Positions 11,019 to 60,423 of a stretch of 64,000 nt of DNA are shown here, one piece after another. The stretch lies in assembly GCF_002906155.1 (NCBI RefSeq), contig NZ_MUJK01000005.1, positions 372,001-436,000 of the forward strand. Direction: 5' to 3'. The translations under genes were made by a program, and so were the position numbers. Positions within the stretch are counted from its first letter, which is position 1, and the number at the start of each line of letters is the position of its first letter. Below the pieces are notes generated by a model. That model had not been told where the DNA came from, made no database searches, and saw only the letters and a program-made list of their open reading frames with translations. The DNA comes from Pseudomonas laurylsulfativorans (lineage in GTDB: Bacteria > Pseudomonadota > Gammaproteobacteria > Pseudomonadales > Pseudomonadaceae).

Positions 11019-12542
11019 CTACGCCTGGCGAGAGTCTTCCAGCGATCCTTGAAGCAACATAGATAATTCTGTATCCGATACCCGCCGAATGCGGATCGCT
11101 GCTAGTCGCAGCAGATTCGAAGTCGACATTTCCTTAGCTTGTGGATAGGTCGCAAACACCCAGGCGATCTTCCGAAGCTGAAAGTCATGCTCCGTTTCGA
11201 CAAGGTCCCTCACAGTTTCAATCGCACAAGGGAATTTCGTGGCTAGTCGCAGAAAATCGTAATGGCGTGGAACAGCTCGGGCAAGTGCTGCATAAGAGAT
11301 CCTAATCGGCCAAGAATGGGATTGGAGAAGGCAATCGCTTGCTTTTTGTAGTTCAACTACTAGTTCGGCATCTCTGGCAGCCCAATCTACATACGGGTAC
11401 CTGATAGCGGCCATATGATGGGATCTGACATAGTCGGTGAGCCAGATCCGATCATTCCGATATAGCCACATATAGTCAGTCCGATCATGAACCCGCGTTG
11501 ATTCGGGATATGCGACGAACCGCTCTCGATGAGCGTTCACCTTTAATTCGCCCGGGACGTTTCGCTTCTGGTAAGGAATTTTATTTTCACGAACAAACGT
11601 TGATAAGCCTTGATCTTCAAAGGCGAACGCCAAATTGGAAAGCCTTTCGGAATCAAGCCCAAGCAGGTGACAGAGGAAGTAGAAGCGAAATGGATGATGG
11701 GACCTTCGCGGAGTACGGAGCAGCCGGAGAACCCACTCATGCCCTTTGGGTTCGCCGGCGTTCAATAGCTGGTACTCACGTGATTGAGGTGCGCCTGCCA
11801 TAGCGCCATTTAGGTAATCATGAAGCAGTGATAAACGAATGCGATCCCTGTGAAGAATTCCCAGCTCCGCCAGCCGATAGCGAAGCAAACCTCCGGTGAG
11901 TAGCTTTGATACTTCTGCTGAATTACGGAACCCCCATGCCGTGAGCTGTGCTACCTCAGTTAACGCTGGTATCTCATTTTGATTTTGAACTGCGTCTTCA
12001 AACCCGCGGTCCTTGAGACCATCGGGAAGAAACAAGTACCTCCAGTCATCGAATGGCGGACTCGCGACCTTCAGCACAATCTGATGGTACGGGCACACCA
12101 GCACACCAGTTACTTGATGGATTCGATGCCAGTACGCTTGACCTCCATGTCGAATATCACGAGCAACGCAGCGCTCACAAAACTTCAGTGCTCCGAAGCG
12201 CTCAAAGCCCGAAGCAGTGAGCCCCACAGACATCTTCAACCCAATTCCCGAAGGTCCAGACATTGCTTTAATTGCAGTGTCCAGCTGACTACTGCTGAGG
12301 AACGGTGCGAAAATCGGTAACAGCGTATGTGCCTGGATGAGGTAACTCACTGACAACTTATTAGCCAATTGCTGTGAGAGTGCATCGAGACAGCAAGGAA
12401 AGGCCGAGCCACAGGTCCTAGAATACCGACCAAACAAGTCGTAACTCGTCTGGCGATAGCTGGCATTGGCTGCGAGCCGATGGTACCTAGCCGCCAGGCT
12501 GTAGATTGTTTCATCAGGGAAAGCTTGCGGAAAAAACTCCAT
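11019..12542 (-). CDS. tnsD: TnsD/TniQ-family target-site selector, element 1
   Basis: Target-selection protein of 507 residues, the same size as Tn7 TnsD. The N-terminal TniQ domain opens with FPDETIYSLAARYH and includes LFGRY. It carries the zinc site C122-x2-C125 and C150-x2-H153 with YWHRIHQVTGVLVC between. In Tn7, TnsD binds the 3' end of glmS and recruits TnsC. The location of this element at exactly that site supports the same role here. AGGAG lies 7 bp before ATG 12542. It follows tnsC by 32 bp in one operon. Its C-terminal half has no motif I recognise, as is usual for the DNA-binding part of TnsD. Confidence 0.9.
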   Translation of the reverse strand: MEFFPQAFPDETIYSLAARYHRLAANASYRQTSYDLFGRYSRTCGSAFPCCLDALSQQLANKLSVSYLIQAHTLLPIFAPFLSSSQLDTAIKAMSGPSGIGLKMSVGLTASGFERFGALKFCERCVARDIRHGGQAYWHRIHQVTGVLVCPYHQIVLKVASPPFDDWRYLFLPDGLKDRGFEDAVQNQNEIPALTEVAQLTAWGFRNSAEVSKLLTGGLLRYRLAELGILHRDRIRLSLLHDYLNGAMAGAPQSREYQLLNAGEPKGHEWVLRLLRTPRRSHHPFRFYFLCHLLGLDSERLSNLAFAFEDQGLSTFVRENKIPYQKRNVPGELKVNAHRERFVAYPESTRVHDRTDYMWLYRNDRIWLTDYVRSHHMAAIRYPYVDWAARDAELVVELQKASDCLLQSHSWPIRISYAALARAVPRHYDFLRLATKFPCAIETVRDLVETEHDFQLRKIAWVFATYPQAKEMSTSNLLRLAAIRIRRVSDTELSMLLQGSLEDSRQA

Positions 12543-40788: not shown

Positions 40789-44315
<3,527 letters not shown>

Positions 44316-44398
44316 TCCCGGTTGTAGGATCACAGAATAGTTGCTTATTTTCACAAATAGATGGTGCGCTATCTGTTTATCAGGTAGCCATTACAAAG

Positions 44399-44428
44399 AA
44401 AGCCCGCTAAGAAAGCGGGTTTTTTTTG
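44399..44428 (+). terminator. Rho-independent terminator after gyrB
   Basis: CCCGCT (44403-44408) pairs with AGCGGG (44414-44419), followed by a run of Ts to 44427. It ends the dnaA-gyrB cluster and is probably the last core feature before element 2. Confidence 0.85.
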
Positions 44429-45214
44429 CCCCGGTAAAGGGTGAGCTATCGATTTGGCAAGTCTTGGACTCAAAAAGAAGTAACAAAACCGCAGGTCAAA
44501 CAAATATCTCCGAGAATTAGTAATCCAAGGGCGTTGAAAGTCTGAGCGTATTAATTGACTAAGAAGCGAAGAATTTCAATTACGGATATATGTGAATCGA
44601 AAAAATTGATTTGAAGAAATGCACGGTTTTGTTGAAAAACAGCACCTAAAGGAAGTTAGCTATTTTGAGTAATACTATACATTGCTAACTTAGGAAGAAT
44701 GCAAAAGTTGCCTGCCGAACGCCAAAAAAGTGCAGGTTTTTCGGTGGCAAATCGTAGATTTTACGCGTACCGTGGAATACTATTTGAAGACGCAACTGTC
44801 TCAAAAAATCGCAATCTTATAAGGTAAATCAAGACGTTATTTGAAGGTGCTCGAGTGAACCGTAACTCGGCAACAGTTGAAGTCCGCAGGTTTAGAGCGT
44901 AACCCTATAAAAAAAATCAGCTTAAATTAAAAAGCTATCAAGCCCAAAGAGGATAAAAATATGAACAATTGGAGGTGTGAAATGTAAAACGCGACCAAAA
45001 CCAAGGGGTTTTGACCGCGCAGATCTGAAGCGATATTGCAGGCTTGAGAACCGCAATTTCGGCTTTTTTTCAGCGCCTGTCAATCCCCTCCCATCATTTC
45101 GACTTTATCGAGGCCGCTCGACGGGGAAGTGTTGCCTGTCGATTGTGGATCTCGAGCACCGGTCTGTACCTGGTTTCTAGGCGCAGCGATGGTGCACGTC
45201 TGTGGAGGTGTTCG
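44429..45214. other. AT-rich non-coding region between gyrB and tnsA of element 2
   Basis: Roughly 790 bp with no believable gene. It must contain the gyrB-side end of element 2 and the tnsA promoter. Repeated words are ATTTGAAG (about 44612, 44782, 44838) and GCAGGT (about 44492, 44733, 44886). There is an 8-bp dyad AAGTTAGC/GCTAACTT (44653-44660 and 44684-44691). None forms regular arrays like those of element 1. Confidence 0.5.
44990..45019. repeat. Inverted repeat upstream of tnsA, element 2
   Basis: CGCGACCAAAACC (44990-45002) pairs with GGTTTTGACCGCG (45007-45019) with two internal mismatches and a 4-nt loop. Could be an operator, an attenuator or part of the element end. Confidence 0.5.
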
Positions 45215-45853
45215 ATGGCAGTACGTAAAGTAGTTACCCGCAGTTCATGTCATTTCAGGGGGTATTTCCCATCCCTGAAAAACGGTCATCCTGTGGCCTG
45301 GGAGTCCCAGTTAGAGGGCGGTTTTTTCCGTCTGCTAGAGCTGTCTCCGTTCGTTCTCCGCTATGAAGTACAACCTTCTAGGGAACGACTTCCTTTGGGC
45401 GATACATTCCTAGATTACGTTCCCGATCTGCGTGTGTTTCTAGCAAATGGGAGCGAGTGGTGGATCGAAGTCAAGCCATCGAGAAAGCTTCCAATCCTTA
45501 GCGTTAAGCAAAAGCTGAGCGCAGCCTCAATACATTTCCCTGCCACCAATCGAAATTTTTTAGTTGTTACGGACGAGCTTATTTGGCGAGAGCCATTAGC
45601 GACAAATCTGCAGAAAATTCTATATCACCGACGTGGACCATTGCTTTCGTCGGAGCAGCACGCGGAAGTTTGCTCAAAACTCAATAAATACAAACCTCAC
45701 GTTTTTCACGACGTTATTTCATTATTTGGGCGAATGGAAGCTTGGCGTTTGTTGGGGCTGTGCGTTATCGGGATAAATCTAGAAGAAACCCTGGTCGAAG
45801 AGTCACAGGTCTTTCTTTCAGGAGGACATCGTCATGCAAACATTTTCGCTTAA
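45215..45853 (+). CDS. tnsA: TnsA-like endonuclease, element 2 (short form)
   Basis: Predicted 5'-strand nuclease of 212 residues, much shorter than the element 1 protein. The PD-(D/E)XK core is E30/E34 (AWESQLEGGF), D71 (DYVPDLRVF) and E85-V-K87 (WWIEVKPSRK). ATG 45215 has GGAGG upstream, whereas the longer open frame from 45044 has no ribosome site. The end overlaps tnsB by 20 bp. A nuclease-active TnsA would give cut-and-paste movement rather than the replicative mode of TnsA-less Tn5053-type elements. Confidence 0.85.
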   Translation: MAVRKVVTRSSCHFRGYFPSLKNGHPVAWESQLEGGFFRLLELSPFVLRYEVQPSRERLPLGDTFLDYVPDLRVFLANGSEWWIEVKPSRKLPILSVKQKLSAASIHFPATNRNFLVVTDELIWREPLATNLQKILYHRRGPLLSSEQHAEVCSKLNKYKPHVFHDVISLFGRMEAWRLLGLCVIGINLEETLVEESQVFLSGGHRHANIFA

Positions 45854-47798
45854 GTTGAGATTAGTTGTGGTTATCAACCACACGAGAATGACATTACAAC
45901 GGCGCCTTGTGGACAGACGCTTACTTTTCGTTGATGAACTCGGAGAGCCAACGAAGTTAAAGGAAAGCGAATTCTATATCGGTTATGAGCGCCGTGAGAT
46001 AGAAATCTGCGATGACCAACCTTATCTCGGAGAAATTCCAGTTATCAGAAACGTAGCACCGGATCTGACTTGTTTTCCACCAAGGCATAGTAAAGAAGCT
46101 ATACGTCGGCGTAAATATTTAGAAAGCCTTACAGAGGGACAAGATATGTTACCGAGTTTAAGCGTTTTACGAGAAAAAATACTAGAAATAGCAAAAGGCT
46201 TGGAAGATATTCGAGTCCCGTCAATATCTACAATTAGAAGATGGTTCTCAAAATTCTCAGGTCGAAACGTTGTAAAGCTAGTTCCAAAACACTCGAAAAA
46301 AGGAAGGGTCTCCGTTATATCTGGTGAGCTAGAAGAAATATTGACGCGCGTGATTGATGAGATTTATCTCAAACCTGAACGCCCAGATATCTCGAAGGTA
46401 GTTCTCGAGTATCAAAAACGTGTAGATGAGAAAAACGCAACTCGCCTTCCCTCTCGCCACCTGAAAATACCTTGTGGTATGACCATTCGTAGGTACATTG
46501 CAAAACTTGATCCGTATGAGGTTGATGTTCATCGATTGGGTAAACACGCCGCGAAAAAAAAACACAGAACGGCAATCGGAGTGCTCACAGTAACTGACAT
46601 TCTTGATCGATGGGAGATTGATCATACGCTTATGGATGTATTGTTAGTGGACGAAGAAACAGGACTAATTATTGGTCGTCCCTACATCTCTATCGTGCTG
46701 GATAAGTTTTCGCGAATGATCATGGGTTACCTGATTCATCTCGCAGCTCCAAATACTGAGACCGTTCTTCGCGTCATCGAACGCTCCATTCGTCCTAAAG
46801 CGGAATTGCTAAAACGCTTCCCGGAGGTAGAGGGTGAGTGGCGAGCACATGGACTACCCACGCGAGTCGTTCCTGATAATGCAGCTGAATTCCATGCCGA
46901 TGATTTGATTGCTGGGTTTAACGAACTAGGGATTGAGATTATGTATCCCCGATCTAGAGGTCCAGAGATGAAAGGTTCGGTCGAAAGATTTTTCCGTACA
47001 CTGAATACTGGATTGATTCATGGTTTACCTGGAACGACGTTTTCGAATATTCAAGAAAAGGGAGACTACGATTCGGAGAAGCATGCTTGCTTCACATTTG
47101 AGCAGATTGAACGAAGCATCGTGAAATGGATTGTCGACGGATATCATCAAACCCCTCACCGTTCTCTTGACGCAAGGACCCCTGCCCAAGTTTGGGCTTC
47201 GGCAGAGGCAGATCGGCTCATCAAACTACCCGTTGATCTAGATGAACTTGAATGCATTCTCGCGCGCCGGAGGTCGGTGTGTGTCCATCACTATGGCATT
47301 GAAGTAGACGGTCACGGTTACCATTCACTTGAACTTGCGCAATTGAGTATGCGTATGGCACCTGAAGAAAAAATCAGTGTCCGATTTCGTGACGAACTAA
47401 GCCATGTTTGGGTGCACGATCGTTTTAGAAATGTCTTTTTACAAGTGCCAGTCAAAGATAAACGCATGCTTGGAGTGAGCCGTGATCTATGGAAATCGGC
47501 AAAAAATGCATTGCGAGCGAAAGGTGACGATAAACCAAGTTTTGAAAAGATACATCAGTGCTATCGCGATTTGGAAAAAGACGTGGACTACGCTCGCCAT
47601 TCTCAAAAGCTACGGCAACGCCGGGCAGTAACTCGTGCCAAGTTAGATAAAGATGGTTGGAAACTCCCAAACGTTAAGTTGCCACTCTCTTCAGTCAGCA
47701 TGGAATGGTTGGATATGCCCATTGCGACTGATGTAAGCACAACATTCAGAGTTGTTCATCGTCAACCTGCTGGGAGACTGAATAATGAGCCGTCGTGA
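45834..47798 (+). CDS. tnsB: TnsB/TniA-like DDE transposase, element 2
   Basis: Transposase of 654 residues with an rve-type core. The predicted triad is D263 (RWEIDHTLMD), D348 (VVPDNAAEF) and E384 (GSVERFFRTLN), followed by a Mu-type C-terminal beta barrel region. AGGAGG precedes ATG 45834. Sequence resembles the TniA/Tn5053 side of the family more than Tn7 TnsB, and shares little with the element 1 enzyme outside the catalytic motifs. The gene is far more AT-rich than gyrB. Confidence 0.88.
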   Translation: MQTFSLKLRLVVVINHTRMTLQRRLVDRRLLFVDELGEPTKLKESEFYIGYERREIEICDDQPYLGEIPVIRNVAPDLTCFPPRHSKEAIRRRKYLESLTEGQDMLPSLSVLREKILEIAKGLEDIRVPSISTIRRWFSKFSGRNVVKLVPKHSKKGRVSVISGELEEILTRVIDEIYLKPERPDISKVVLEYQKRVDEKNATRLPSRHLKIPCGMTIRRYIAKLDPYEVDVHRLGKHAAKKKHRTAIGVLTVTDILDRWEIDHTLMDVLLVDEETGLIIGRPYISIVLDKFSRMIMGYLIHLAAPNTETVLRVIERSIRPKAELLKRFPEVEGEWRAHGLPTRVVPDNAAEFHADDLIAGFNELGIEIMYPRSRGPEMKGSVERFFRTLNTGLIHGLPGTTFSNIQEKGDYDSEKHACFTFEQIERSIVKWIVDGYHQTPHRSLDARTPAQVWASAEADRLIKLPVDLDELECILARRRSVCVHHYGIEVDGHGYHSLELAQLSMRMAPEEKISVRFRDELSHVWVHDRFRNVFLQVPVKDKRMLGVSRDLWKSAKNALRAKGDDKPSFEKIHQCYRDLEKDVDYARHSQKLRQRRAVTRAKLDKDGWKLPNVKLPLSSVSMEWLDMPIATDVSTTFRVVHRQPAGRLNNEPS

Positions 47799-48726
47799 GG
47801 AAGATCAAATCCAGTTTTCGTTGAGGCATCACTTCATCGTTAGTCCGCAAGCGGAGCGGGCCCTGACCAGGCTTATGGAGGTACATGGAGACACACTTCG
47901 CACAGGTGCCAGCAAGGGACTTGTTATCCAGGGGCCGAGCGGTGTGGGGAAAAGCACATTGATCACAGAATATGTCAGGGAACTGGAATCTACCAACCCG
48001 CCTAAACCTGGCCACCGCGCTGTGCTCAGCGTCGAAATTCCCTCCTCTCCAACCAAGAAGAATTTGGCAACGGCTTTGCTGACCGCAATGAACGATCCTT
48101 ACGCAGATTCCCGTAGCCATTCTGCGGAAACGAAATTTTCAAGGATTGTTCTGCTTTTGAGTAGTCTCGGCGTTGAGGTCGTCGTTTTGGACGAGGCTCA
48201 GCATCTCGTGGATTACAAGCGTAATGATGCATACGAGGCGGCGGATTGGATCAAGAGTTTGATGAATGAAACAAGCATTACGTTTGTCCTCGTTGGCCTA
48301 AAGCGAACTGAACGCTTACTTTTGGCGAACGAACAACTACGGCGAAGATTCTCCGCTACAGTCGATTACAACCGGTTCATGATTACTGAAACTTCTTGGG
48401 CCCATTTTGCAACGCTGCTCCGGGTAATTCAAGAATTGTTGCCGGTGAAGTCCATTAGTTTTTCAACTAATGAAATGATTAAACGTTTCTATCTAGGTTC
48501 ATTTGGATTGATAGACTATCTAATTAAGGTCGTAGATCGTTCTGTATGGCTGGTCCAGCATCGCCATGCCGAGGGTATTAACTTGGAAATACTTTCGGAA
48601 GCTTTTAAGGATGAGGTTTGGAGCTCTGCGACGAACGAGCGCAATCCATTTGATCCAGCATTTGATTTCAAGGCTTTAACAGGCCAGCGTGAGCCTTTCG
48701 AGAACTTTGACACCATTGCAGCTTGA
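47785..48726 (+). CDS. tnsC: TnsC/TniB-like AAA+ ATPase, element 2
   Basis: Short transposition ATPase of 313 residues. Walker A IQGPSGVGKST ends at residue 58 and Walker B VVVLDEAQHL is at 132-141. It lacks the long tails of the element 1 TnsC and so resembles TniB or the compact TnsC of CRISPR-associated transposons. ATG 47785 overlaps the tnsB end by 14 bp. Confidence 0.87.
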   Translation: MSRREEDQIQFSLRHHFIVSPQAERALTRLMEVHGDTLRTGASKGLVIQGPSGVGKSTLITEYVRELESTNPPKPGHRAVLSVEIPSSPTKKNLATALLTAMNDPYADSRSHSAETKFSRIVLLLSSLGVEVVVLDEAQHLVDYKRNDAYEAADWIKSLMNETSITFVLVGLKRTERLLLANEQLRRRFSATVDYNRFMITETSWAHFATLLRVIQELLPVKSISFSTNEMIKRFYLGSFGLIDYLIKVVDRSVWLVQHRHAEGINLEILSEAFKDEVWSSATNERNPFDPAFDFKALTGQREPFENFDTIAA

Positions 48727-48806: not shown

Positions 48807-50684
48807 ATGTTTGGCCTTTTGATAAATCCTGAGCCGGAGCATGACGAAAGTTTGCTGGGTTACCTGCATCGCTTAGGGATATGTAATGGCCTATGGAATG
48901 GTGAGCTCGTTAAGCTATTCAAAGGTCTTACAGATGAGGAAGTTAGCTCGTGGTTGGGTCAATGTCGTAAGCCACCAAGTTGGTATGATGTAATTAAGGA
49001 AATCAGAAAGCCAAAATTCAATAATCAAAAAGTTTGGACGTTATCGTATTCTAAATATTGTCCTGCTTGCCTAGCTTTTAGTTGTTATTGGCGTGAGGTA
49101 TGGGACTTCACCCTCTATACGGTCTGTACAATCCATGCAGTTGAACTTCTGTATGAATGCCCGATTTGTCAAGCAAGGGTTACGCCAAAAATACTTTATA
49201 CGAGGACCTGTGAAAACTGTGGGTCATCTGTATTTTCAGAAAAGTCAGCTATTACTGAAGTAGATGAATCGAAATTATGGCTTTCGAAGGAACTTAAAAG
49301 GCGTTTGAAGAATAGGTTTAATGAAGTTTCGATAAATATGAATTCCTTAACATATAGTCAGTTCCATTTTTTAGCTGTTCGCTTTGGAGTGCGAGCGTTA
49401 AGTCGTAAATGCCATATGAACATGACAGTTGCATCAATGGCCTCTCAAATCGTAGTTCCTGTTCTAGCCAAGTCGGCTGGACAGATTTTGATGGGCTGGC
49501 CCGAAGCATTTCATGATTTGCTTACTGATCTAATGCAACGTCGTAGACCAAATCTATCATCAAAATTAGGTGCTGCATTTGGGCTAATCTACAATGACAT
49601 TTTTTTATCACTGACTGACCGATGTTATGATTTTGTTCGTCTTGAATTCGAGAATTACGTTGTTAAAAACTGGACGGGCCCCCTGGCGATGCGGAATCGG
49701 CGGTTGAGCGAATGTACGCTGATTGAACATCGCTGGCTTCCATATAATAAAGCGGCGGAGATAACGGGTCTCCCCAAAAATTTTCTTCGAAGAATGTATT
49801 CTTCAGGTGAACTCGACGCTCGTGAATTTAGCTATTCCTGTGGTAAAACTGTTACGGTGGTAGATATTGAAGAGGCACGGAAGCTCTCTTCAATTGCACG
49901 TGAGCCCCTAAATTTGCGTGAGGTATCTCGTTTATTATGCCTTAGCAAAAAGCGCGTTGAACAACTTATAACCGCTAAATTATTAAAGTTTGTCGGTGGA
50001 GTACCGCAAGCTGGTGAAAGATGGCTTATCGACTATGCCTCGATAGCTGCTCTAGCTCCTGATGAGTTTCTAACATTCGCACGCGATGACTTCAAAACGA
50101 TATCTCAAGTCGCAAAATACTACCTTCCGACATCTGGTGGTTTGGTAGAATTAGCTAACGCGATTAAGTCAGGTGAAATTTCAGTTTTTTGCAAAGAGGA
50201 ATCTGAGTTTTTGAATTTTGGCAAATGGCTCATTGATCCTGGCGAGCTTGGACGAAAAGCTATCAAACACTCTATTTCATCACACACACGGAGCATGTCC
50301 GTCACCGAAGCGGCGAAGATGCTGGGTGTAAAATCCGAAGTGTGTTACGCCCTCGTCCGTATCGGTCGACTTCGTAGCGAAACTGTTCAATGCTCTAGGC
50401 GGGCGGCAAAGGTCATAACGCTCGGAGCAGTACAACATTTCAAGCGTAACTATATTCTTGCCCCGGAAGTGGCGAAGGTCTTGGGGGTATCAGTCGTTAA
50501 TGCTTTATCTCATTTGCGAAAAAGAGGTTTTTTTCCCGTCGTTGGCCCTTCTCTCTCAGATGCACACTGCCGGCAGTATGTATGGCGTCGAAGCAAAAAA
50601 CTCGTAGCTTTTCTATCCTCTACAGCTTCGCTTTGCGACCCGCTTGAGCTCCACACACTCACGCCTCGCCTTGCTCTGGACTGA
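48807..50684 (+). CDS. tniQ: TniQ-family target selector with C-terminal HTH array, element 2
   Basis: Target selector of 625 residues. The N-terminal TniQ domain opens NPEPEHDESLLGYLHRL. It has zinc ligands C85-x2-C88 and C107-x2-H110, then a second finger with C118-x2-C121 and C135-x2-C138. From about residue 311 onward come at least four helix-turn-helix modules of the excisionase/MerR kind, near 311-335 (YNKAAEITGLP), 367-395 (LREVSRLLCLS), 497-524 (VTEAAKMLGVK) and 550-578 (APEVAKVLGVS), with a weaker one near 432. Such an array suggests sequence-specific binding of a long attachment site. An 80-bp gap separates it from tnsC. Confidence 0.85.
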   Translation: MFGLLINPEPEHDESLLGYLHRLGICNGLWNGELVKLFKGLTDEEVSSWLGQCRKPPSWYDVIKEIRKPKFNNQKVWTLSYSKYCPACLAFSCYWREVWDFTLYTVCTIHAVELLYECPICQARVTPKILYTRTCENCGSSVFSEKSAITEVDESKLWLSKELKRRLKNRFNEVSINMNSLTYSQFHFLAVRFGVRALSRKCHMNMTVASMASQIVVPVLAKSAGQILMGWPEAFHDLLTDLMQRRRPNLSSKLGAAFGLIYNDIFLSLTDRCYDFVRLEFENYVVKNWTGPLAMRNRRLSECTLIEHRWLPYNKAAEITGLPKNFLRRMYSSGELDAREFSYSCGKTVTVVDIEEARKLSSIAREPLNLREVSRLLCLSKKRVEQLITAKLLKFVGGVPQAGERWLIDYASIAALAPDEFLTFARDDFKTISQVAKYYLPTSGGLVELANAIKSGEISVFCKEESEFLNFGKWLIDPGELGRKAIKHSISSHTRSMSVTEAAKMLGVKSEVCYALVRIGRLRSETVQCSRRAAKVITLGAVQHFKRNYILAPEVAKVLGVSVVNALSHLRKRGFFPVVGPSLSDAHCRQYVWRRSKKLVAFLSSTASLCDPLELHTLTPRLALD

Positions 50685-50707: not shown

Positions 50708-50941
50708 ATGACGATGCCATTTGAACGGACCAGGTCCGTCGCACAAACTCACGCGTTCCTGACGGAGCTTGCTCGCGACACAGAAGTGCCCGAACGCATT
50801 AGACGAAACGCTCATTTCCTTTTACGTCACTTTCCCACTAAGCAGGATGTTCTGCAGGCTGGCCGTATTGAAGAGCAAGCGAAAAAATTAGGGATAGGTA
50901 CATTTGGTCCCGTTTTTTGCTCATCAACCGAAGATTGGTAG
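50708..50941 (+). CDS. Small conserved protein downstream of tniQ (BPSL0761-like family)
   Basis: 77-residue protein starting MTMPFERTRSVAQTHAFL, with LLRHFPTKQDVLQA in the middle. It begins 23 bp after the tniQ stop, so it is probably the fifth gene of the tns operon. It matches the gene at 10451-10708 over its first 45 residues (MTMP.ERTRS..QT..FL.EL.RD). Function is unknown. The conserved basic and aromatic residues suggest a small helical binding protein, but no catalytic motif is present. Confidence 0.7.
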   Translation: MTMPFERTRSVAQTHAFLTELARDTEVPERIRRNAHFLLRHFPTKQDVLQAGRIEEQAKKLGIGTFGPVFCSSTEDW

Positions 50942-51185
50942 ACTGCCATCACGACGGGTCGCTACCTACCGGTTCTGTTGAAAAAGTGGGATTTTCAGCT
51001 GGCCTGAACCCAGGCGCGGTTACCGCTACGGCGTCGGGCTAGCAGGCCTGCCGGAGCTTGACGATCTCGAGCAATTGTTGCGCGGAGTTATGCCCAGGAT
51101 GCATTAGGTAGGGGATCAACGGAAAGCTCAGGAGCCGCGCCATTCCCTGTAATGCAAAGCGGGTAGGTAGGAGACGATTGGTACA

Positions 51186-51947
51186 ATGACTGTCATAGAG
51201 CAAGCTGTAGACGCATTGCAGAAGGCCAAAAAGGTGGTCTTTTTCACGGGCGCCGGTATCTCCGCCGATAGCGGTATCCCCACGTACCGCGAAAAACTTT
51301 CTGGGATCTGGACAGGCTACGATCCTCGGGATTTAGAGACGGCCAAGGCCTTTCGGGAAAACCCAGCATTGGTGTGGGGATGGTATCTGTGGCGGCGTCT
51401 CCGGGTTGCTCAAGCAGAGCCCAATGCGGCACATCTTGCGGTATCCCGCATAGCTGACTCACAACGTCAAGTTTCTGTTATCACTCAGAATATTGACGAC
51501 CTTCATGAGCGAGCCGGCTCGTTGAATGTCGTGCATTTGCATGGCAGTTTGGCATTCCCCAAGTGCTTCGCCTGCCATCGGACTGCGGTAATTTCACCCG
51601 ATCAATCCGCTTTGCCGGATCACGGAGCTCTGATCGAACCTCCACGGTGTCAGCGTTGTAACGGAAAAATGCGTCCTGCGGTGGTCTGGTACGGAGAAGA
51701 TCTGCCGTCCCAAGCTTGGAAGGCCGCAGTCCACCTGGTTAAGGAATGCGATCTTCTGATCTCCGTTGGCACCTCTGGGATCGTTATGCCTGCCGCTGGC
51801 CTTCCCGACCTTGCGTTGGCGTCTGGCGCTTCGGTTATACATGTGAACAAGGCTGACGTCGCCATGGGTGAGCATAAGGAGTTCATGCTGATGGGGGCTG
51901 CCGCCGACGTACTGCCGATGCTGCTCAGAAGGATAGAGACGGGTTAA
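51186..51947 (+). CDS. Sir2-family NAD-dependent protein deacylase
   Basis: Cytosolic NAD+-dependent lysine deacylase of 253 residues. The nucleotide site is FFTGAGISADSGIPTYR, then TQNIDDLHERAG, the catalytic His in HLHGS, and a zinc ribbon with CFAC and CQRC. The tail has ISVGTSGIVMPA and IHVNKAD. The complete catalytic set fits a housekeeping-type CobB-like deacylase rather than the Sir2 domains fused in anti-phage NADases. It stands alone behind element 2, so it may be cargo. Confidence 0.85.
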   Translation: MTVIEQAVDALQKAKKVVFFTGAGISADSGIPTYREKLSGIWTGYDPRDLETAKAFRENPALVWGWYLWRRLRVAQAEPNAAHLAVSRIADSQRQVSVITQNIDDLHERAGSLNVVHLHGSLAFPKCFACHRTAVISPDQSALPDHGALIEPPRCQRCNGKMRPAVVWYGEDLPSQAWKAAVHLVKECDLLISVGTSGIVMPAAGLPDLALASGASVIHVNKADVAMGEHKEFMLMGAAADVLPMLLRRIETG

Positions 51948-52488
51948 TCCTGGAGATTTGAGCTGTGACGCTGCGTGTCGAGCGCAGATTTCTGATCCGC
52001 TCGTTTAGTCCACGACAGGCGTAGGAAAGTGTGTTGGACGCTTACGAATAGGGGTTTTATAGGGGATTATAGAGCGATTATAGAGCGATTATAGAGCGAT
52101 TATAGAGCGATTATAGAGCGATTATAGAGCGATTATAGAGCGATTATAGAGCGATTATAGAGCGATTATAGAGCGATTATAGAGTGGTACTGGCTGGCAC
52201 TGCGCCGCTGATATAGGTCTACCCGTAGCCCCGATGTATCACAGACCCAATTTCCCCCCCTCTTCAAATACCCACCCGAAGTGAGGTTCTGACAGGAAGT
52301 AGCTCAATCCGGAATCGGCCGTTGGTCACTTCTGACCGATGAACAAAGGGAAAGGGCTCGGAAACCGAAGACTATTCCTCCCGAGCGCTCGCTGTGTTTC
52401 TTCAGGCAAAGCTTTGACCTCGCTGGATGCCGTATCGAGATGCTTTCACGAAGAGAAACATGTAGCACGATGATCGGTTGAAATCCAT
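51948..52488. other. Non-coding region with an 11-bp tandem array
   Basis: About 540 bp with no convincing gene. Its main content is the tandem array at 52066-52186. The part after the array (52187-52488) has only short open frames on both strands without ribosome sites. Confidence 0.5.
52066..52186. repeat. 11-bp direct repeat, 11 copies
   Basis: The unit ATTATAGAGCG is repeated ten times perfectly and an eleventh time with one change (ATTATAGAGTG), with no spacers. The period is close to one helical turn, so the AT part recurs on one face of the DNA. It is not in a gene. Confidence 0.97.
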
Positions 52489-53418: not shown

Positions 53419-53520
53419 CCAAGCAACAACGCATGTCTGGCTCGGGGCCAGTCTCCAATGATTTGATGGGCGACCTAATGGGACAACCTTGCGGTTTCAT
53501 CGAAACAAATCGCATCCTTG

Positions 53521-53568
53521 CTTGGCTGCTTGGCTGCTTGGCTGCTTGGCTGCTTGGCTGCTTGGCTG
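53521..53568. repeat. 8-bp direct repeat, 6 copies
   Basis: CTTGGCTG repeated six times without interruption and with a partial unit on each side. Number of copies is likely to vary by slippage. It is 188 bp before the start of the restriction-modification gene. Confidence 0.97.
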
Positions 53569-53634
53569 CTGTAGGTGGGCAAAGTTATTTGTCACATCGG
53601 TCAAAGTTAAGTGGTTCGACCACAGTTAGTGGCT

Positions 53635-53673
53635 AAAAAACCCCAGTAGATCTCGTATCTCCTGGGGTTTTTT
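53635..53673. terminator. Bidirectional terminator before the type ISP gene
   Basis: AAAAAACCCCAG (53635-53646) pairs with CTGGGGTTTTTT (53662-53673) around a 15-nt loop. A/T tracts on both sides allow both directions. It isolates the RM gene from upstream transcription. Confidence 0.85.
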
Positions 53674-53756
53674 GGCTGCTGATAGAGGCGTCTATTGGTA
53701 GACTGGAAAAATTTTGCGCCCAGACGTGCGCTAGCAGTAATTAAAAGGAATTCTTC

Positions 53757-56700
53757 ATGTCCGCCTTATCTGCCCTGCTCGGCACCTACCGTTCAGCCTC
53801 CGTCACCGAACGTGAAAAAGGCACCTACTTCGAAGAGTTGATCTGCGCCTATCTGCGCAACGAGGCCACCTACCGCGACCTCTACGACCAGGTGTGGACG
53901 TATGCAGAGTGGGCCAAAGAAAGAGGCCTGAGTGGCAAGGATGCTGGTATCGATCTGGTAGCCAAAACCCGAGGCACAGACGAGTACCATGCCATCCAAT
54001 GCAAGCTGTATGCAGAGGACTATAAAGTCCAGAAGAAGGACATCGACAGCTTCTTCACCGCCTCGGGCAAAGCGCCGTTCACGCACAGAGTAATCGTCAC
54101 CACAACCAACAACTGGAGTGAGCACGCCGAGGATGCCTTGCAGGGCCAGCAGCCCCCTGTCAGTAAAATCGACCTGCAAGCACTGGAAGACAGTCAGATT
54201 GACTGGGCGAAGTATCAGCCCAAGCAAAGGATTGTGATAAAGGCCAAGAAGCAATTACGCGAGCACCAGCAAACAGCGCTTAATGCTGTGGCAGCAGGCC
54301 TCAAGGACGCCGAACGTGGCAAGCTGATCATGGCCTGCGGTACTGGCAAGACCTTCACCAGTCTGAAGATTGCCGAGCAGCAGGCTGGCAAGGGCAAGCG
54401 CGTACTTTTCCTAGTGCCCAGCCTGTCGCTGTTGTCGCAGTCGCTTACCGAGTGGACGCAGGAAAGCGAAACCCCGCTCCACAGCTTTGCCGTCTGCTCG
54501 GACAGCGACGTTGGTAAGAAGCGCAAGGTTGAAGACGACGCCGTTCAAGTCTTCACTCACGAGCTGCGTTATCCGGCCACTACTAAGGCTGATCGTCTCG
54601 CTGCGGAAATGCCTAAACGTCACGATGCGGAACACATGAGCGTAGTGTTTTCAACCTATCACTCCATCGATGTGATCAGCCGTGCCCAGCATGAGCACGG
54701 TCTACCAGCTTTCGATCTAGTGATCTGCGATGAAGCGCACCGCACCACTGGCGCGACATTTGGCGAGGATGATGAAAGCACCTTCGTGCGCATCCATGAT
54801 GCAGACTACATCCGCGCCGCCAAGCGCCTGTACATGACTGCCACGCCTCGTATCTATGGCGACAATGCAAAGATTAAGGCCGAGTCCGGCGAAGTCACCC
54901 TCTGCTCGATGGATGACGATGCGCTGTATGGCAAAGAGCTATTCGTCATCAACTTCTCTGAAGCCGTTCAGCGCGGCCTGCTCACCGACTACAAAGTGCT
55001 GGTACTCACCGTCGAAGAAAGCGCCATCAGTCGCCGTCTCCAGGACTTGCTGAGAGACGAAGACAACCAGCTCAAGGTCGACGACGCGGCCAAAATCGTC
55101 GGCTGTTGGAAAGCGCTGGCCAAACAGGGGCTAGCCGAGCAGTTGGTGGGTGACGGCGAGCCAATGAAGCGCGCTGTGGCGTTCTGCCAAGTCATCTCGC
55201 CCAACTACAAGGGCACCAAGCACAAGGTCAGCTCGATCAACATCGCAAGCATGTTTCAGTCGGTGGTGGAGGCTTACCAGGAGTCTGAAGAAATCGACGA
55301 AGCTTCGCGAATCATCTGTGAGGCCGAACACGTCGATGGCGGCATGAATGCCAGCCAGAAGGAAGCCAAGCTCAATTGGCTAAAGGAAGAAGCTCCAGCT
55401 AATACCTGCCGCATTCTCAGCAACGTGCGCTGCCTGTCAGAGGGGGTGGACGTTCCGGCGCTGGATGCCGTGCTCTTCCTCACTCCGCGTAACTCACAGG
55501 TGGACGTGGTGCAATCGGTGGGCCGTGTGATGCGCAACGCACCGGGCAAGAAGCGCGGCTATGTGGTGCTGCCTGTGGTCATTCCAGCTGGCATGGAGCC
55601 TCATGAAGCCCTCAACGACAACCAGACCTACAAAGTGGTTTGGCAGGTGCTCCAGGCGTTGCGCTCCCACGACGACAGTTTCGACGCAATGGTCAACAAG
55701 CTCGACCTGATCGGCTCAGACCCGCGCAAGATGGAAGTCATCGCCATCACGGACAAGGCTGACAAGAAAGCGAAGAAATCCAGCGGTACTAGCAGCGGCA
55801 AGGCCGGCAAAGGCCAGTATGGCATTGGCGAAAAGCGCCCAAAACACGATGCCGAAGGCCAAATGACCCAGCAAGCCGAGTTGACCTACGAAGTGGGGGA
55901 AATCGAAAAGGCCATCTACGCCAAGATCGTCGATAAGTGCGGAAACCGCCATCACTGGGAAGACTGGGCCAACGACATCGCCAAGATCGCCCGTACACAC
56001 ATCGACCGCATCCAGGGTATCTTGGAGAACCCGGTTAACACCCAGGAAAAGGTAGCTTTCAACGCCTTTGCCGCCGAGCTGCGTGACGACCTTAACGACA
56101 GCGTCAGCGATGGCGAGATTGTCGAAATGCTCGCACAGCACCTGGTTACCAAGCCGGTGTTCGATGCGCTTTTCGACGAACACAGCTTTGCCAATCACAA
56201 CCCCATGTCCAAGGCTATGCAGGGTGTGCTGGACGCGCTCCATGAACACCACCTGGCCAAGGAAGCCGACACCCTAGATAAGTTCTATGCCAGCGTGCGT
56301 CAACGCGCTGCCGGTATCAACAACGCCCAGGGTAAACAGAAGATTATCGTCGAGCTGTACGATAAGTTCTTTCGTAACGCATTCCCCAAAATGACTGAGC
56401 GCCTAGGCATCGTTTACACACCGGTCGAGGTGGTGGACTTCATCCTTCACAGCGTCAATCATCTACTGCAACAGGAATTCGGCCAGACCCTCGGCAGCAA
56501 GGGCGTTCACATCATTGACCCTTTTACCGGTACAGGCACCTTCATCACCCGCCTGATCCAGTCGGGGTTGATCAAGCCGGAAGAGCTATCGCACAAGTAC
56601 AAGCACGAAATTCACGCCAATGAGCTGGTACTGCTGGCCTACTACATCGCCACCATCAATATCGAAGCGGCCTACCACGGCGAAGTGATCGACGAGTACA

Positions 56701-58637
56701 CGCCGTTTGAGGGCATCTGCCTCACCGACACCTTCCAGATGTATGAGAAGGACGATCTGGTAAACGCCCTGCTGGAAGACAACAGCGCCCGCCGTAAGAG
56801 GCAAAAGGAACTGGATATTCGGGTGATCGTGGGTAATCCCCCGTATTCAGTGGGTCAGGGTGATGCCAACGCTAACAATGCCAATGTGGGATATCCATCA
56901 TTGGACGCACGTATTCGTGACACCTATGCCGCACGCTCCAGTGCGAACAACAAAAACGCCCTATACGACAGCTATATCCGTGCCATCCGCTGGGCCAGTG
57001 ATCGTATCGGTAATGCTGGCATCATCGGGTTTGTCACTAATGCCGGTTGGATCGAGGCAAATACCGCCGACGGCCTGCGTAAATGCTTAACCGATGAGTT
57101 TTCCAGCCTTTATGTGTTCCACCTACGTGGAAACGCTCGTACTTCGGGTGAAACGCGGCGCAAAGAAAAAGACAATGTTTTCGGCATGGGCAGCCGAGCC
57201 CCGATTGCCATTTCTCTTTTGGTTAAAAATCCCAGCGCTACTGAACAAGGCCAGATTCATTTTCAAGATATAGGCGACTATCTCAGCCGCGAAGAAAAGC
57301 TGGAAAAGATTGCTAACTACGCCAGCTTGGCCGGTATCGAACAGTGGCGTCATATCACCCCCGACGAACACGGAGACTGGTTGAAGCAGCGTGATAGCAG
57401 CTTTGGTCAGTTTATTGTAATCGGGGACAAGAAAAGCGACGGCCTCAAAATATTCGACAACTATTCTGGCGGTGTTCAAACCAACAGGGATGCTTGGGTT
57501 TTTAACTATTCAAAAACATCGCTTATACGCAACGTGGGCAGTTTGATCGGAAAATATTGTTCAGAGTTATCTCGATTCAATGCTGTTCATTCCGTTGCCG
57601 AAAGGCATACAAGAGAGCGTGTGGCTGCTGATTTCCTTGATAAGGACTCCACACTTATCAGCTGGTCACGATCACTACGAGCTGACGCCATCAAGAACAA
57701 ACCACTCGGTTTTGATGCCGAACGGATAACAGTCTCGACGTATAGGCCATTTACGAAACAATGGATGTATTTCGACAGACGCTTGAATGAGATGGTCTTG
57801 CAAATGCCGAGGCTATTCCCGGTTCCGTCTGCGCAGAATTTGATAATCACTTTCAAAGAGCGCTGGAGTGGTGATGGCCAGTTTGCGCTGATAACCAACT
57901 CTATTTTGGAGCAGCAGACAGATGGAGGGGCGCAGTGCTTCCCTCTCTACCTTTACGACGAAGCCGCCCAAGCCTCAAAAGACGACCTCTTTGCCGAGCA
58001 AACTGAAGGTGGATTGCGCCGTCGTGACGCCATCACAGATTCAGGACTGGCTCACTTCCAAGGGGCTTATCCTGGCGAGCAAATCAGTAAGGAAGACCTG
58101 TTCTATTACGTCTACGGTATCCTCCATTCCTCCGACTACCGCGAACGCTTTAACGACAACCTGAGCAAGGAACTCCCGCGCATTCCAGCAGTGAAGAAAG
58201 CCTTCGATTTCTGGGCTTTCAGCAAAGCGGGCCGCGACCTGGCTGACCTTCACCTTAATTACGAAACCGTCGAGCCGTACCCATTGAGCATCGAAGCCAA
58301 GGGCACGCTGACCAATGCGGATTACCGCGTGGAGAAGATGAAGTTTGCCAAGAAGGGCGACAAGACCACTGTCATCTACAACCACCGCATCACCATCAAG
58401 GGGATCCCCGAGGCGGCGTGGGATTATGTGGTCAACGGTAAGGCTGCACTGGACTGGGTGATGGAGCGCCAAGCTGTGCGTACAGATAAAACCAGCAACA
58501 TCGTCAATGACGCCAACGATTGGGCCATCGAGACCATAGGCAATTCAAAATACCCGCTGGAGCTGTTCCAGCGCGTGGTGACGGTAAGCCTAGGAACCAT
58601 GAAAATCGTGCAATCCCTCCCTCCCCTCGACATCTGA
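53757..58637 (+). CDS. Single-chain type ISP restriction-modification enzyme (LlaGI-like)
   Basis: One polypeptide of 1626 residues with nuclease, motor, methyltransferase and target recognition, as in LlaGI-type enzymes. An Mrr-like nuclease is at the N-terminus with D66 (AGIDLVAK) and Q81-x-K83 (IQCKLY). The SF2 helicase has CGTGKT near 193-199, ICDEAHR near 323, MTATPR and QSVGRVMR near 584. The adenine methyltransferase has DPFTGTGTF near 921 and NPPY near 1026. The C-terminal 500 residues are the likely recognition domain. AGGAA precedes ATG 53757. No separate specificity or methylase gene is nearby, as expected. Every catalytic motif looks intact. Confidence 0.9.
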   Translation: MSALSALLGTYRSASVTEREKGTYFEELICAYLRNEATYRDLYDQVWTYAEWAKERGLSGKDAGIDLVAKTRGTDEYHAIQCKLYAEDYKVQKKDIDSFFTASGKAPFTHRVIVTTTNNWSEHAEDALQGQQPPVSKIDLQALEDSQIDWAKYQPKQRIVIKAKKQLREHQQTALNAVAAGLKDAERGKLIMACGTGKTFTSLKIAEQQAGKGKRVLFLVPSLSLLSQSLTEWTQESETPLHSFAVCSDSDVGKKRKVEDDAVQVFTHELRYPATTKADRLAAEMPKRHDAEHMSVVFSTYHSIDVISRAQHEHGLPAFDLVICDEAHRTTGATFGEDDESTFVRIHDADYIRAAKRLYMTATPRIYGDNAKIKAESGEVTLCSMDDDALYGKELFVINFSEAVQRGLLTDYKVLVLTVEESAISRRLQDLLRDEDNQLKVDDAAKIVGCWKALAKQGLAEQLVGDGEPMKRAVAFCQVISPNYKGTKHKVSSINIASMFQSVVEAYQESEEIDEASRIICEAEHVDGGMNASQKEAKLNWLKEEAPANTCRILSNVRCLSEGVDVPALDAVLFLTPRNSQVDVVQSVGRVMRNAPGKKRGYVVLPVVIPAGMEPHEALNDNQTYKVVWQVLQALRSHDDSFDAMVNKLDLIGSDPRKMEVIAITDKADKKAKKSSGTSSGKAGKGQYGIGEKRPKHDAEGQMTQQAELTYEVGEIEKAIYAKIVDKCGNRHHWEDWANDIAKIARTHIDRIQGILENPVNTQEKVAFNAFAAELRDDLNDSVSDGEIVEMLAQHLVTKPVFDALFDEHSFANHNPMSKAMQGVLDALHEHHLAKEADTLDKFYASVRQRAAGINNAQGKQKIIVELYDKFFRNAFPKMTERLGIVYTPVEVVDFILHSVNHLLQQEFGQTLGSKGVHIIDPFTGTGTFITRLIQSGLIKPEELSHKYKHEIHANELVLLAYYIATINIEAAYHGEVIDEYTPFEGICLTDTFQMYEKDDLVNALLEDNSARRKRQKELDIRVIVGNPPYSVGQGDANANNANVGYPSLDARIRDTYAARSSANNKNALYDSYIRAIRWASDRIGNAGIIGFVTNAGWIEANTADGLRKCLTDEFSSLYVFHLRGNARTSGETRRKEKDNVFGMGSRAPIAISLLVKNPSATEQGQIHFQDIGDYLSREEKLEKIANYASLAGIEQWRHITPDEHGDWLKQRDSSFGQFIVIGDKKSDGLKIFDNYSGGVQTNRDAWVFNYSKTSLIRNVGSLIGKYCSELSRFNAVHSVAERHTRERVAADFLDKDSTLISWSRSLRADAIKNKPLGFDAERITVSTYRPFTKQWMYFDRRLNEMVLQMPRLFPVPSAQNLIITFKERWSGDGQFALITNSILEQQTDGGAQCFPLYLYDEAAQASKDDLFAEQTEGGLRRRDAITDSGLAHFQGAYPGEQISKEDLFYYVYGILHSSDYRERFNDNLSKELPRIPAVKKAFDFWAFSKAGRDLADLHLNYETVEPYPLSIEAKGTLTNADYRVEKMKFAKKGDKTTVIYNHRITIKGIPEAAWDYVVNGKAALDWVMERQAVRTDKTSNIVNDANDWAIETIGNSKYPLELFQRVVTVSLGTMKIVQSLPPLDI

Positions 58638-59329: not shown

Positions 59330-59357
59330 GTGAGGCCGATCCAGTGATCGGCCTCAC
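59330..59357 (+). repeat. Perfect 11-bp hairpin just before the RT gene
   Basis: GTGAGGCCGAT (59330-59340) and ATCGGCCTCAC (59347-59357) with a CCAGTG loop. It sits 20 bp before ATG 59377 and could be part of the retron RNA, a processing signal or a translation-control element. No T-run follows. Confidence 0.75.
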
Positions 59358-59376
59358 GTCATTTCGGGGACAGGAA

Positions 59377-60423
59377 ATGGATGCTCCGCTTTATCCCTTC
59401 AAACCGATCTACAGCCTGAAGGCGCTGTCGTTGACCCTTGGCGAACCCGCCGAACTCCTCGAAAGTTTGGCCAAGCGCAGCTCCAACTTGTACCGTCATG
59501 TGCCGCAAACCAAGAAAGACGGCACTCCCCGTGATACCTATGATGCCTACGAGCCGTTGAAAGCCATTCAGCGCAAGATCGTTGATCGACTACTGGCTCG
59601 CGTTCGCTTTCCAGGCTATCTCCATGGCGGGATCAAGGATCCGGTTAAACGCCGCAGTATTTATTCCAATGCGCACATCCATGGTCGTGCTCAGTGCGTG
59701 GTGCTGCAGGACATTAAGGACTTTTTTCCGTCCATCAAGACGCAGCATGTTCAGCAATTGTTCGTGGGCTTGTTCGGGTTTTCCGAAACGGTGGCAGGCA
59801 TCTTGGCGCTGCTGACCACCCGCCATGGCGTGGTGCCGCAAGGAGCCAGCAGCAGTGGCTATATAGCCAACCTCGTGTTCTGGGATATCGAGCCGGCATT
59901 GGTGGCCAAGTTGAATACGCAGGGGCTCAACTATTCTAGGTTCGCGGATGACATCACCATCACATCCACTAAGCCCCTCGATTCATCAGCGCTAACAAGC
60001 ATCGTCTCGGCAGTCACCAACATGCTGGCGCAGAAGGGCTGCTACCAGAAGCGTTCAAAGCTGCATATTCGCAAGCGCGGACAAACGGTGCTCTCCAAAA
60101 ATGGATTCGAGCCTTTGACCGTTACCGGCTTGACGATCTTCAACGCAGTCCCAGGCATACCTAAGGCCGAGCGAAAGGCGATTCGGTCAGCCGTGAAACA
60201 GTTGGAAGATCAGGCAACGCAGGGTATGACTTGGTCAGAGCTGGAGCCTTTGGTTCGCCGTGTAATGGGCCGTGTGGGGCGCTTGATTGCCTGTGCGCAT
60301 CCCGAAGGTGACCGCCTGAAACAACGATTGCATGCACTCAAAGCCCGCAGCCAGGTGGCGCTATTGGATCGCTATGCGGCGGCACTGCAAGACGCGACGG
60401 TTACAGGTCAGATACCTGGTTAA
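59377..60423 (+). CDS. Retron-type reverse transcriptase
   Basis: Reverse transcriptase of 348 residues. Retron hallmarks are NAHIH near residues 98-102 (NAxxH) and VTG near 249-251. Catalytic residues are D112 (QDIKDFFPS) and the FADD box near 189-192. PQGASSSGYIANL is the template-grip motif. Group II intron maturase domains are absent. ATG 59377 is preferred over GTG 59344, which lies inside a hairpin, and has GGGGACAGG upstream. Retron RTs make a branched RNA-DNA from the adjacent template RNA and act with an effector in phage defence. The type cannot be assigned from this sequence alone. Confidence 0.88.
   Translation: MDAPLYPFKPIYSLKALSLTLGEPAELLESLAKRSSNLYRHVPQTKKDGTPRDTYDAYEPLKAIQRKIVDRLLARVRFPGYLHGGIKDPVKRRSIYSNAHIHGRAQCVVLQDIKDFFPSIKTQHVQQLFVGLFGFSETVAGILALLTTRHGVVPQGASSSGYIANLVFWDIEPALVAKLNTQGLNYSRFADDITITSTKPLDSSALTSIVSAVTNMLAQKGCYQKRSKLHIRKRGQTVLSKNGFEPLTVTGLTIFNAVPGIPKAERKAIRSAVKQLEDQATQGMTWSELEPLVRRVMGRVGRLIACAHPEGDRLKQRLHALKARSQVALLDRYAAALQDATVTGQIPG

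Follow-up and report, generated by a model that had tools for sequence, protein, structure and literature searches.

The window, the whole 64,000-nucleotide stretch of Pseudomonas DNA analyzed here, contains an intact gyrB gene followed by a Tn7-like element of 43.6 kb, the first 19.7 kb of which lie within the window. The initial annotation had placed the element next to the 3' end of gyrB, and this position holds to the base: the right end begins with TGTAGGATCACAGAATAG at 44323, 7 nt past the gyrB stop codon, the left end closes beyond the window at the equivalent of position 87892, and CCGGT is present on either side of the element. The sequence 3' of the left end resembles native post-gyrB DNA, including the native terminator, as found in element-free relatives. 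The genes and features of the locus are as follows:

41898..44315, + strand: gyrB, the intact attachment gene (open reading frame; stop codon TGA at 44313-44315; start inferred from the SEENTYDS residues)
44262..44297, + strand: putative TniQ-binding stretch in gyrB codons, placed solely by analogy with E. coli TnsD
44318..44322, + strand: target site duplication CCGGT (second copy at the equivalent of 87893-87897, outside the window)
44323..44440, + strand: right transposon end, beginning with TGTAGGATCACAGAATAG; the inner limit is arbitrary
44323-44343 and 44348-44366: repeated motifs resembling TnsB sites (putative assignment)
44400..44430, + strand: intrinsic terminator within the right end, reading with gyrB
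45044..45853, + strand: tnsA-like endonuclease gene (Pfam Tn7_TnsA-like_N, E 4.9e-4, below the gathering cut-off)
45834..47798, + strand: tnsB-like transposase gene (Pfam rve_3 and rve, both below the gathering cut-off)
47785..48726, + strand: tnsC/TniB ATPase gene (Pfam TniB, E 4e-30)
48807..50684, + strand: TniQ/TnsD-like target selector of 625 aa, the last gene of the tnsA-tnsB-tnsC-tniQ operon
50708..50944, + strand: gene for a small BPSL0761-family protein of unknown function (NCBIfam NF041728, E 1e-23)

The element contains the complete Tn7-like gene set, tnsA, tnsB, tnsC, and tniQ, with the Pfam matches of TniB and TniQ above and those of TnsA and TnsB below the cut-offs. Its ends are likewise of the Tn7 type, with TGT...ACA termini, repeated sites and a 5-bp duplication.

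The 625-residue TniQ matches the Pfam family TniQ over the cut-off (E 2.1e-10) and HTH_17 in two stretches (whole-protein E 1.7e-13), while NCBIfam assigns it an excisionase-family domain (E 7e-10). HTH_17 is matched by 11 of the 11 members of A1 and by all long TniQs scanned, one of them slightly under the cut-off. The Pfam family TnsD (PF15978) is not among the seven families matched by the protein at E up to 1; a TniQ sequence profile finds Tn7 TnsD at E 3.1e-5. Tn7 TnsD (8v32, 9bw1) is also not among the matches listed in the PDB structure searches, a result that is uninformative about the fold. Both zinc sites noticed in the initial annotation are invariant in an 11-sequence alignment and in a divergent alignment of nine sequences:

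49059..49136, + strand: zinc site 1, CCCH (C85, C88, C107, H110)
49158..49220, + strand: zinc site 2, CCCC (C118, C121, C135, C138)

AlphaFold2 was run on the whole protein and on its C-terminal 327 residues, each with a 12-sequence alignment. Block pLDDT in the whole-protein model is 73-90 at residues 231-480, with an overall mean of 69, and the C-terminal part modeled alone has a mean of 79. Since the pTM is 0.46-0.47, neither the relative placement of the modules nor the path of the chain is predicted by the model. The C-terminal half, for which at least four excisionase/MerR-like HTH modules had been proposed, does not lack HTH folds: its predicted secondary structure shows a run of five winged-HTH modules of the MerR/excisionase kind, from about residue 309 to residue 606:

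49731..49901, + strand: predicted winged-HTH module 1, residues 309-365 (AlphaFold2; match to CadR)
49902..50057, + strand: predicted winged-HTH module 2, residues 366-417 (AlphaFold2; profile links)
50091..50261, + strand: predicted winged-HTH module 3, residues 429-485 (AlphaFold2 model alone; no profile link)
50289..50450, + strand: predicted winged-HTH module 4, residues 495-548 (AlphaFold2; Xis/BldC-like fold)
50451..50624, + strand: predicted winged-HTH module 5, residues 549-606 (AlphaFold2; profile link)

Modules 4 and 1 have structure matches of their own, and modules 2, 3, and 5 are winged HTHs by prediction. Module 4 is matched to Pukovnik Xis (Z 8.6, rmsd 2.0, 52 residues), BldC (Z 8.3, rmsd 1.4, 51 residues), and the C-terminal HTH of a CAST TniQ (7u5e; Z 6.4, rmsd 2.6, 55 residues), and module 1, with a middling score, to CadR (Z 5.9, rmsd 2.2, 54 residues). 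Profile comparison links modules 1-2, 1-4, 2-4, and 2-5 with probabilities of 65-85. The remaining six pairs of the ten score below 9, and module 3 has no link at all.

The initial annotation had also proposed comparing TniQ homologues and their neighboring genes, and this comparison bears out the gyrB address. TniQ was sought in 398 genomes of the same genus at E up to 1e-5. Matches were found in 33, of which 28 have a right end of one of three types, A, B, or C, directly past gyrB, which is what a TnsD-like reader of gyrB predicts; homologous TniQs at this site go down to about 18-27% identity. Type-A right ends, to which the window element belongs, lie directly behind gyrB in 17 genomes, with adjoining tns genes in 16 and tns genes on another contig in G006; the tnsB product of type-A relatives is 49-77% identical to that of the window, and in G215 tniQ is split across two contigs. 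Nine further genomes have a right end of type B or C at the gyrB stop and a more divergent TniQ 14-40 kb downstream, on the gyrB contig and co-directional with gyrB. Such a distance is characteristic of B and C elements, and L051 (G277) and L053 (G350) are gyrB-sited. Two genomes (G076 and G376) carry a B/C-type right end at gyrB, their tniQ being located on a different contig. Overall, tniQ is located on the gyrB contig, downstream and co-directional, in 25 of the 28 gyrB-sited genomes, and the three with tniQ on another contig (G006, G076, and G376) have matching duplications at the two element ends. In a tree of 21 TniQs, with long branches flagged, type A grouped with G512, described below (95/96), and type B with type C (100/99), a topology compatible with either one or two origins of gyrB homing.

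The five matching genomes without an element at gyrB comprise G084, G118, and G355 (short TniQ), G046 (a relic), and G141 (a contig-edge fragment, the gyrB site being empty). The relic in G046 is an orphan HTH-module frame from such a TniQ (L052:11669-12487), far from gyrB and with no tnsABC match within the 20 kb read around it.

Scanning a single genome for each species, some of them also in the set of 398, yielded 25 loci. Seventeen adjoin gyrB and one is located elsewhere (L120); L111, L123, L124, and L125 are degenerate or truncated at contig edges, and L127, L129, and L130 belong to other genera, are only distantly related, and show no gyrB within the DNA examined. An identical 638-residue TniQ occurs in six genomes (L040, L041, L042, L043, L044, and L045), always at gyrB, although the last 415 nt of their gyrB genes are 78.6-88.9% identical to those of the window and the elements have four different spacers. 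Letter-identical proteins in these genomes point to recent spread between species.

Outside the genus, nine genomes of the class have a TniQ match. With G481, G544, and G629 left out, gyrB is nearby in one of the six examined: G512, from another family of the class, shows the same arrangement, with the element 3 nt past the stop codon and the duplication GATGT. This element encodes two TniQ proteins (L275:12653-15510), a short one of 344 aa and one of 608 aa in which HTH modules accompany a weak TniQ core. With at least 28 of the 398 sampled genomes occupied, gyrB appears to be a frequent landing site of the Tn7 family in Pseudomonas. End-like sequences were also seen right after gyrB at L174:185, L171:221, L175:189, and L178:201, with no tns genes in the 5-12 kb read; they may be solo ends or belong to B/C-type elements with tns genes further in.

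The junctions are confined to a few nucleotides. Right ends start 4-13 nt past the gyrB stop in type A and 4-6 nt past it in types B and C. Identical 5-bp duplications flank 20 of the 22 paired ends at Pseudomonas gyrB (11/12 for A, 4/4 for B, 5/6 for C), the exceptions being the pairs in G405 and G025, and their sequences vary from genome to genome. This count leaves out G317 and G087, where no left end was found, G398, G399, and G400, where the ends are unpaired, and G012, where the flank differs and the candidate left end lacks a terminal ACA. Tandem arrays occur as well: an A element lies behind another in G006, ends abut in G399, and a B-type end follows the C element of G128.

Within gyrB itself, the putative binding stretch follows the geometry of E. 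coli TnsD, which binds from +23 to +58 relative to the duplication centre, as described in the available text of PMC2918618. The gyrB genes of G512 and the window agree at 24 of 30 positions from -60 to -30 and at 17 of the final 30, and a more conserved stretch is found elsewhere (26/30 at -180 to -150); this pattern gives weak backing to the putative stretch. No difference in conservation was found between gyrB ends that carry a type-A element and those that do not (25 distinct ends in each set), the latter including L076, L080, L082, and L083, which bear other end-like sequences.

An intrinsic terminator reading with gyrB is located 55-83 nt inside the right end in all 34 type-A rows, which were drawn from two collections with partly the same genomes. 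By the same criterion, a terminator was found in 42 of 900 random 140-nt windows from six elements, and in one of six left ends read inward. Among B and C right ends, 11 of 13 have a terminator by a wider criterion that lacks a control of its own (G058 and G076 failed), and the right end of G512 has no clear one. The stems differ in sequence between right ends, so the terminator looks like a maintained feature. Insertion moves the native terminator of gyrB to the far end of the element, and the terminator in the right end probably serves gyrB instead.

Some elements are found away from gyrB. Type-A elements occur on plasmids pXWY and p716811-VIM, both typed as conjugative, with matching duplications in two of three copies (CCGGG and TGTCG) and a mismatch in the second p716811 copy. 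The right end of the P. laurentiana element (L120) lies within an acetyltransferase gene, which it interrupts; the left end was not seen. No gyrB-like flank was recognized by eye at the plasmid or acetyltransferase insertions. Close homologues at unrelated loci had been named in the initial annotation as evidence against gyrB recognition; these plasmids and the acetyltransferase gene make up such a minority, and the majority lie at gyrB. Over 638 residues, the L120 TniQ and the six gyrB-sited copies are 100% identical, so the same protein can accompany insertion elsewhere, which makes the gyrB-homing reading slightly less certain. As in Tn7, a second and unexplained insertion route exists. Matches to tnsE were found in none of 11 genomes or records, and the control of this search gave no match either. 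Furthermore, a related TniQ of 702 aa with HTH_17 sits just behind nrdB. Among relatives outside Pseudomonas, tnsA of G563 lies about 110 bp behind nrdB, the intervening repeats forming a putative end. The array architecture is thus not specific to gyrB.

Given the observed junctions, duplications, orientation, recurrence and terminators, homing to gyrB in the manner of TnsD is well supported. We consider it probable that the transposon homes to the 3' end of gyrB through a TnsD-like TniQ whose array lies along gyrB codons. The N-terminal TniQ core and the zinc sites would bridge to TnsC, and the five winged-HTH modules would form a chain along roughly the last 35-55 bp of the coding region of gyrB. 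Insertion by TnsC and TnsAB would follow 3-13 nt beyond the stop codon, leaving the right end facing gyrB and a 5-bp duplication. The gene stays intact, and the right end would provide it with a new terminator, the native one having been displaced to the far side. The likeliest reading of the C-terminal array is that it reads gyrB codons; the sequence-specific contacts would be made by the array and not by the core, and the bases of gyrB that are read would lie under it.

The division of labor within TniQ could be the reverse, the core and zinc sites mainly reading gyrB and the array doing another job, such as stabilization of non-specific DNA contact, autoregulation, or the choice of plasmid targets. 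We regard this as unlikely, though the zinc finger of E. coli TnsD is essential for binding and its determinants are spread protein-wide, according to the available text of PMC2918618; the array also recurs at non-gyrB sites, and the most divergent gyrB elements, L049 and L050, are only 14-20% identical in modules 3-5. Against a reading core stands its presence in CAST TniQs that act with Cascade, whereas long HTH C-termini accompany protein-guided homing (available text of PMC10293859). Module 5 is, moreover, 50-55% identical in three relatives in which the core regions are 35-48% identical (36-42% overall), a difference that is not seen in the 62% relative or in L050.

It seems rather improbable that the site is chosen by a partner, encoded by the host or by another part of the element, with TniQ as an adaptor only. 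TnsF-type partners are known in Tn6022, but the TniQ of that system is short, 369 aa, in the available text of PMC10293859, while the one studied here has 625 aa and an array. A small BPSL0761-family gene does follow tniQ directly, and the identical TniQ is also found off gyrB; Pfam scans of the cargo genes, however, revealed no obvious target selector, five cargo ORFs being without any family. As for an absence of targeting, with random insertions surviving only behind gyrB or a single ancestral insertion, the site is indeed harmless to the essential gene, but the identical 638-residue TniQ is found at six differing gyrB ends with four spacers. Random or single ancestral insertion is hardly credible and is contradicted by the differing duplications and by the use of the same few nucleotides by three end families and tandem arrays.

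Homing through the array may have a further side. Xis and BldC proteins align head-to-tail on DNA, and module 4 shares their fold of MerR-like DNA-binding domains; those proteins are single and small, whereas here five modules form a covalent chain fused to a TniQ core. Tentatively, the C-terminus may be pictured as a covalent Xis/BldC-like filament with about 10 bp per winged-HTH module, in which module swap or addition retargeted the machinery from gyrB to nrdB and others. The array would be a possibly modular, reprogrammable address reader, and the element would carry a replacement terminator for its target gene.

The Tn7 gene order is tnsA-B-C-selector. The gyrB elements share with Tn7 TnsD and attTn7 this order, insertion just past the stop codon of a conserved gene and a 5-bp duplication, and with TnsD itself a TniQ core with a zinc site and an HTH-rich C-terminus. 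They differ in their address, gyrB and not glmS, and in inserting 3-13 nt past the stop, whereas Tn7 inserts about 20 bp past that of glmS (available text of PMC2918618). The window TniQ, unlike Tn7 TnsD, has a second, CCCC zinc site and leaves the Pfam TnsD model unmatched. Protein-guided homing to the B-subunit gene of a type II topoisomerase is shared with the I-F3 CAST of the Tn7017 type, whose TniQ/TnsD targets parE and not gyrB (available text of PMC11406308); no Cascade gene was called among the scanned cargo proteins of the window element. The TnsD of CAST I-B2 and I-D, which homes to tRNA genes, has a similarly long multi-HTH C-terminal extension (available text of PMC10293859), but the address gene is another one, and TnsA and TnsB are fused there and separate here (available text of PMC11406308).

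The proposal in the initial annotation, target selection of the TnsD kind by an HTH array, is partly upheld: in its gyrB homing (28 of 33 genomes), but not in its novelty. Multiple C-terminal HTH domains have been described for Tn7 TnsD and CAST TnsD in the available text of PMC10293859, and arrays of this kind were already known from TnsD proteins (Faure, 2023). What is added to a known kind of system is the gyrB address, the predicted five-module chain and the carried terminator. A P. putida element has tnsABCD together with metal-resistance genes, and neither 'gyrase' nor 'gyrB' occurs in the available text of that paper (PMC3056050). By term counts, gyrB is absent from the main texts of PMC10293859, PMC8649781, and PMC11406308. 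The site was also unreported among the matches listed in full-text literature searches, judged by title and abstract opening, with supplements and subscription papers outside their scope. The gyrB site looks like a safe place of insertion for Tn7-family elements that has gone unreported.

The right-end terminator suggests how an essential gene tolerates insertion. Junctions are known to the base, and the three families of ends and the many alleles offer an easy test of TnsD-type DNA reading; the same material suits testing the retargeting of HTH arrays for kilobase-scale insertion. The window element holds a large defense cargo, and tandem and chimeric islands occur. The following cargo features are located in the window:

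51186..51947, + strand: Sir2 family protein
53570..53690, + strand: relic type-B right end with its own terminator, inside the type-A element and just before the ISP restriction gene
53757..58637, + strand: type ISP/IIG restriction-methylation enzyme
59344..60423, + strand: reverse transcriptase of defense type

In G037, the same kind of type-B end and ISP restriction gene lie directly at gyrB. Together with the internal type-B end, this makes the window element look chimeric, and it may have arisen through the collapse of a tandem array. Abutting the relic end, at 53511-53569, is a tandem repeat with an 8-bp unit (TGCTTGGC); another, with an 11-bp unit (GATTATAGAGC), is located upstream at 52054-52196. 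Beyond the window (L084, L085; G000:C26:433001-459892), the cargo includes an IetA-like AAA ATPase, a WYL regulator, a dGTPase-like HD protein, a QueC-like protein, a TOTE primase-helicase, an HNH nuclease, and five ORFs without a Pfam family. Two more TniQ genes are present in the same genome, at G000:C26:355070-355489 (- strand) and at 12072-12536 of the window (- strand), the latter matching the Pfam TnsD profile.
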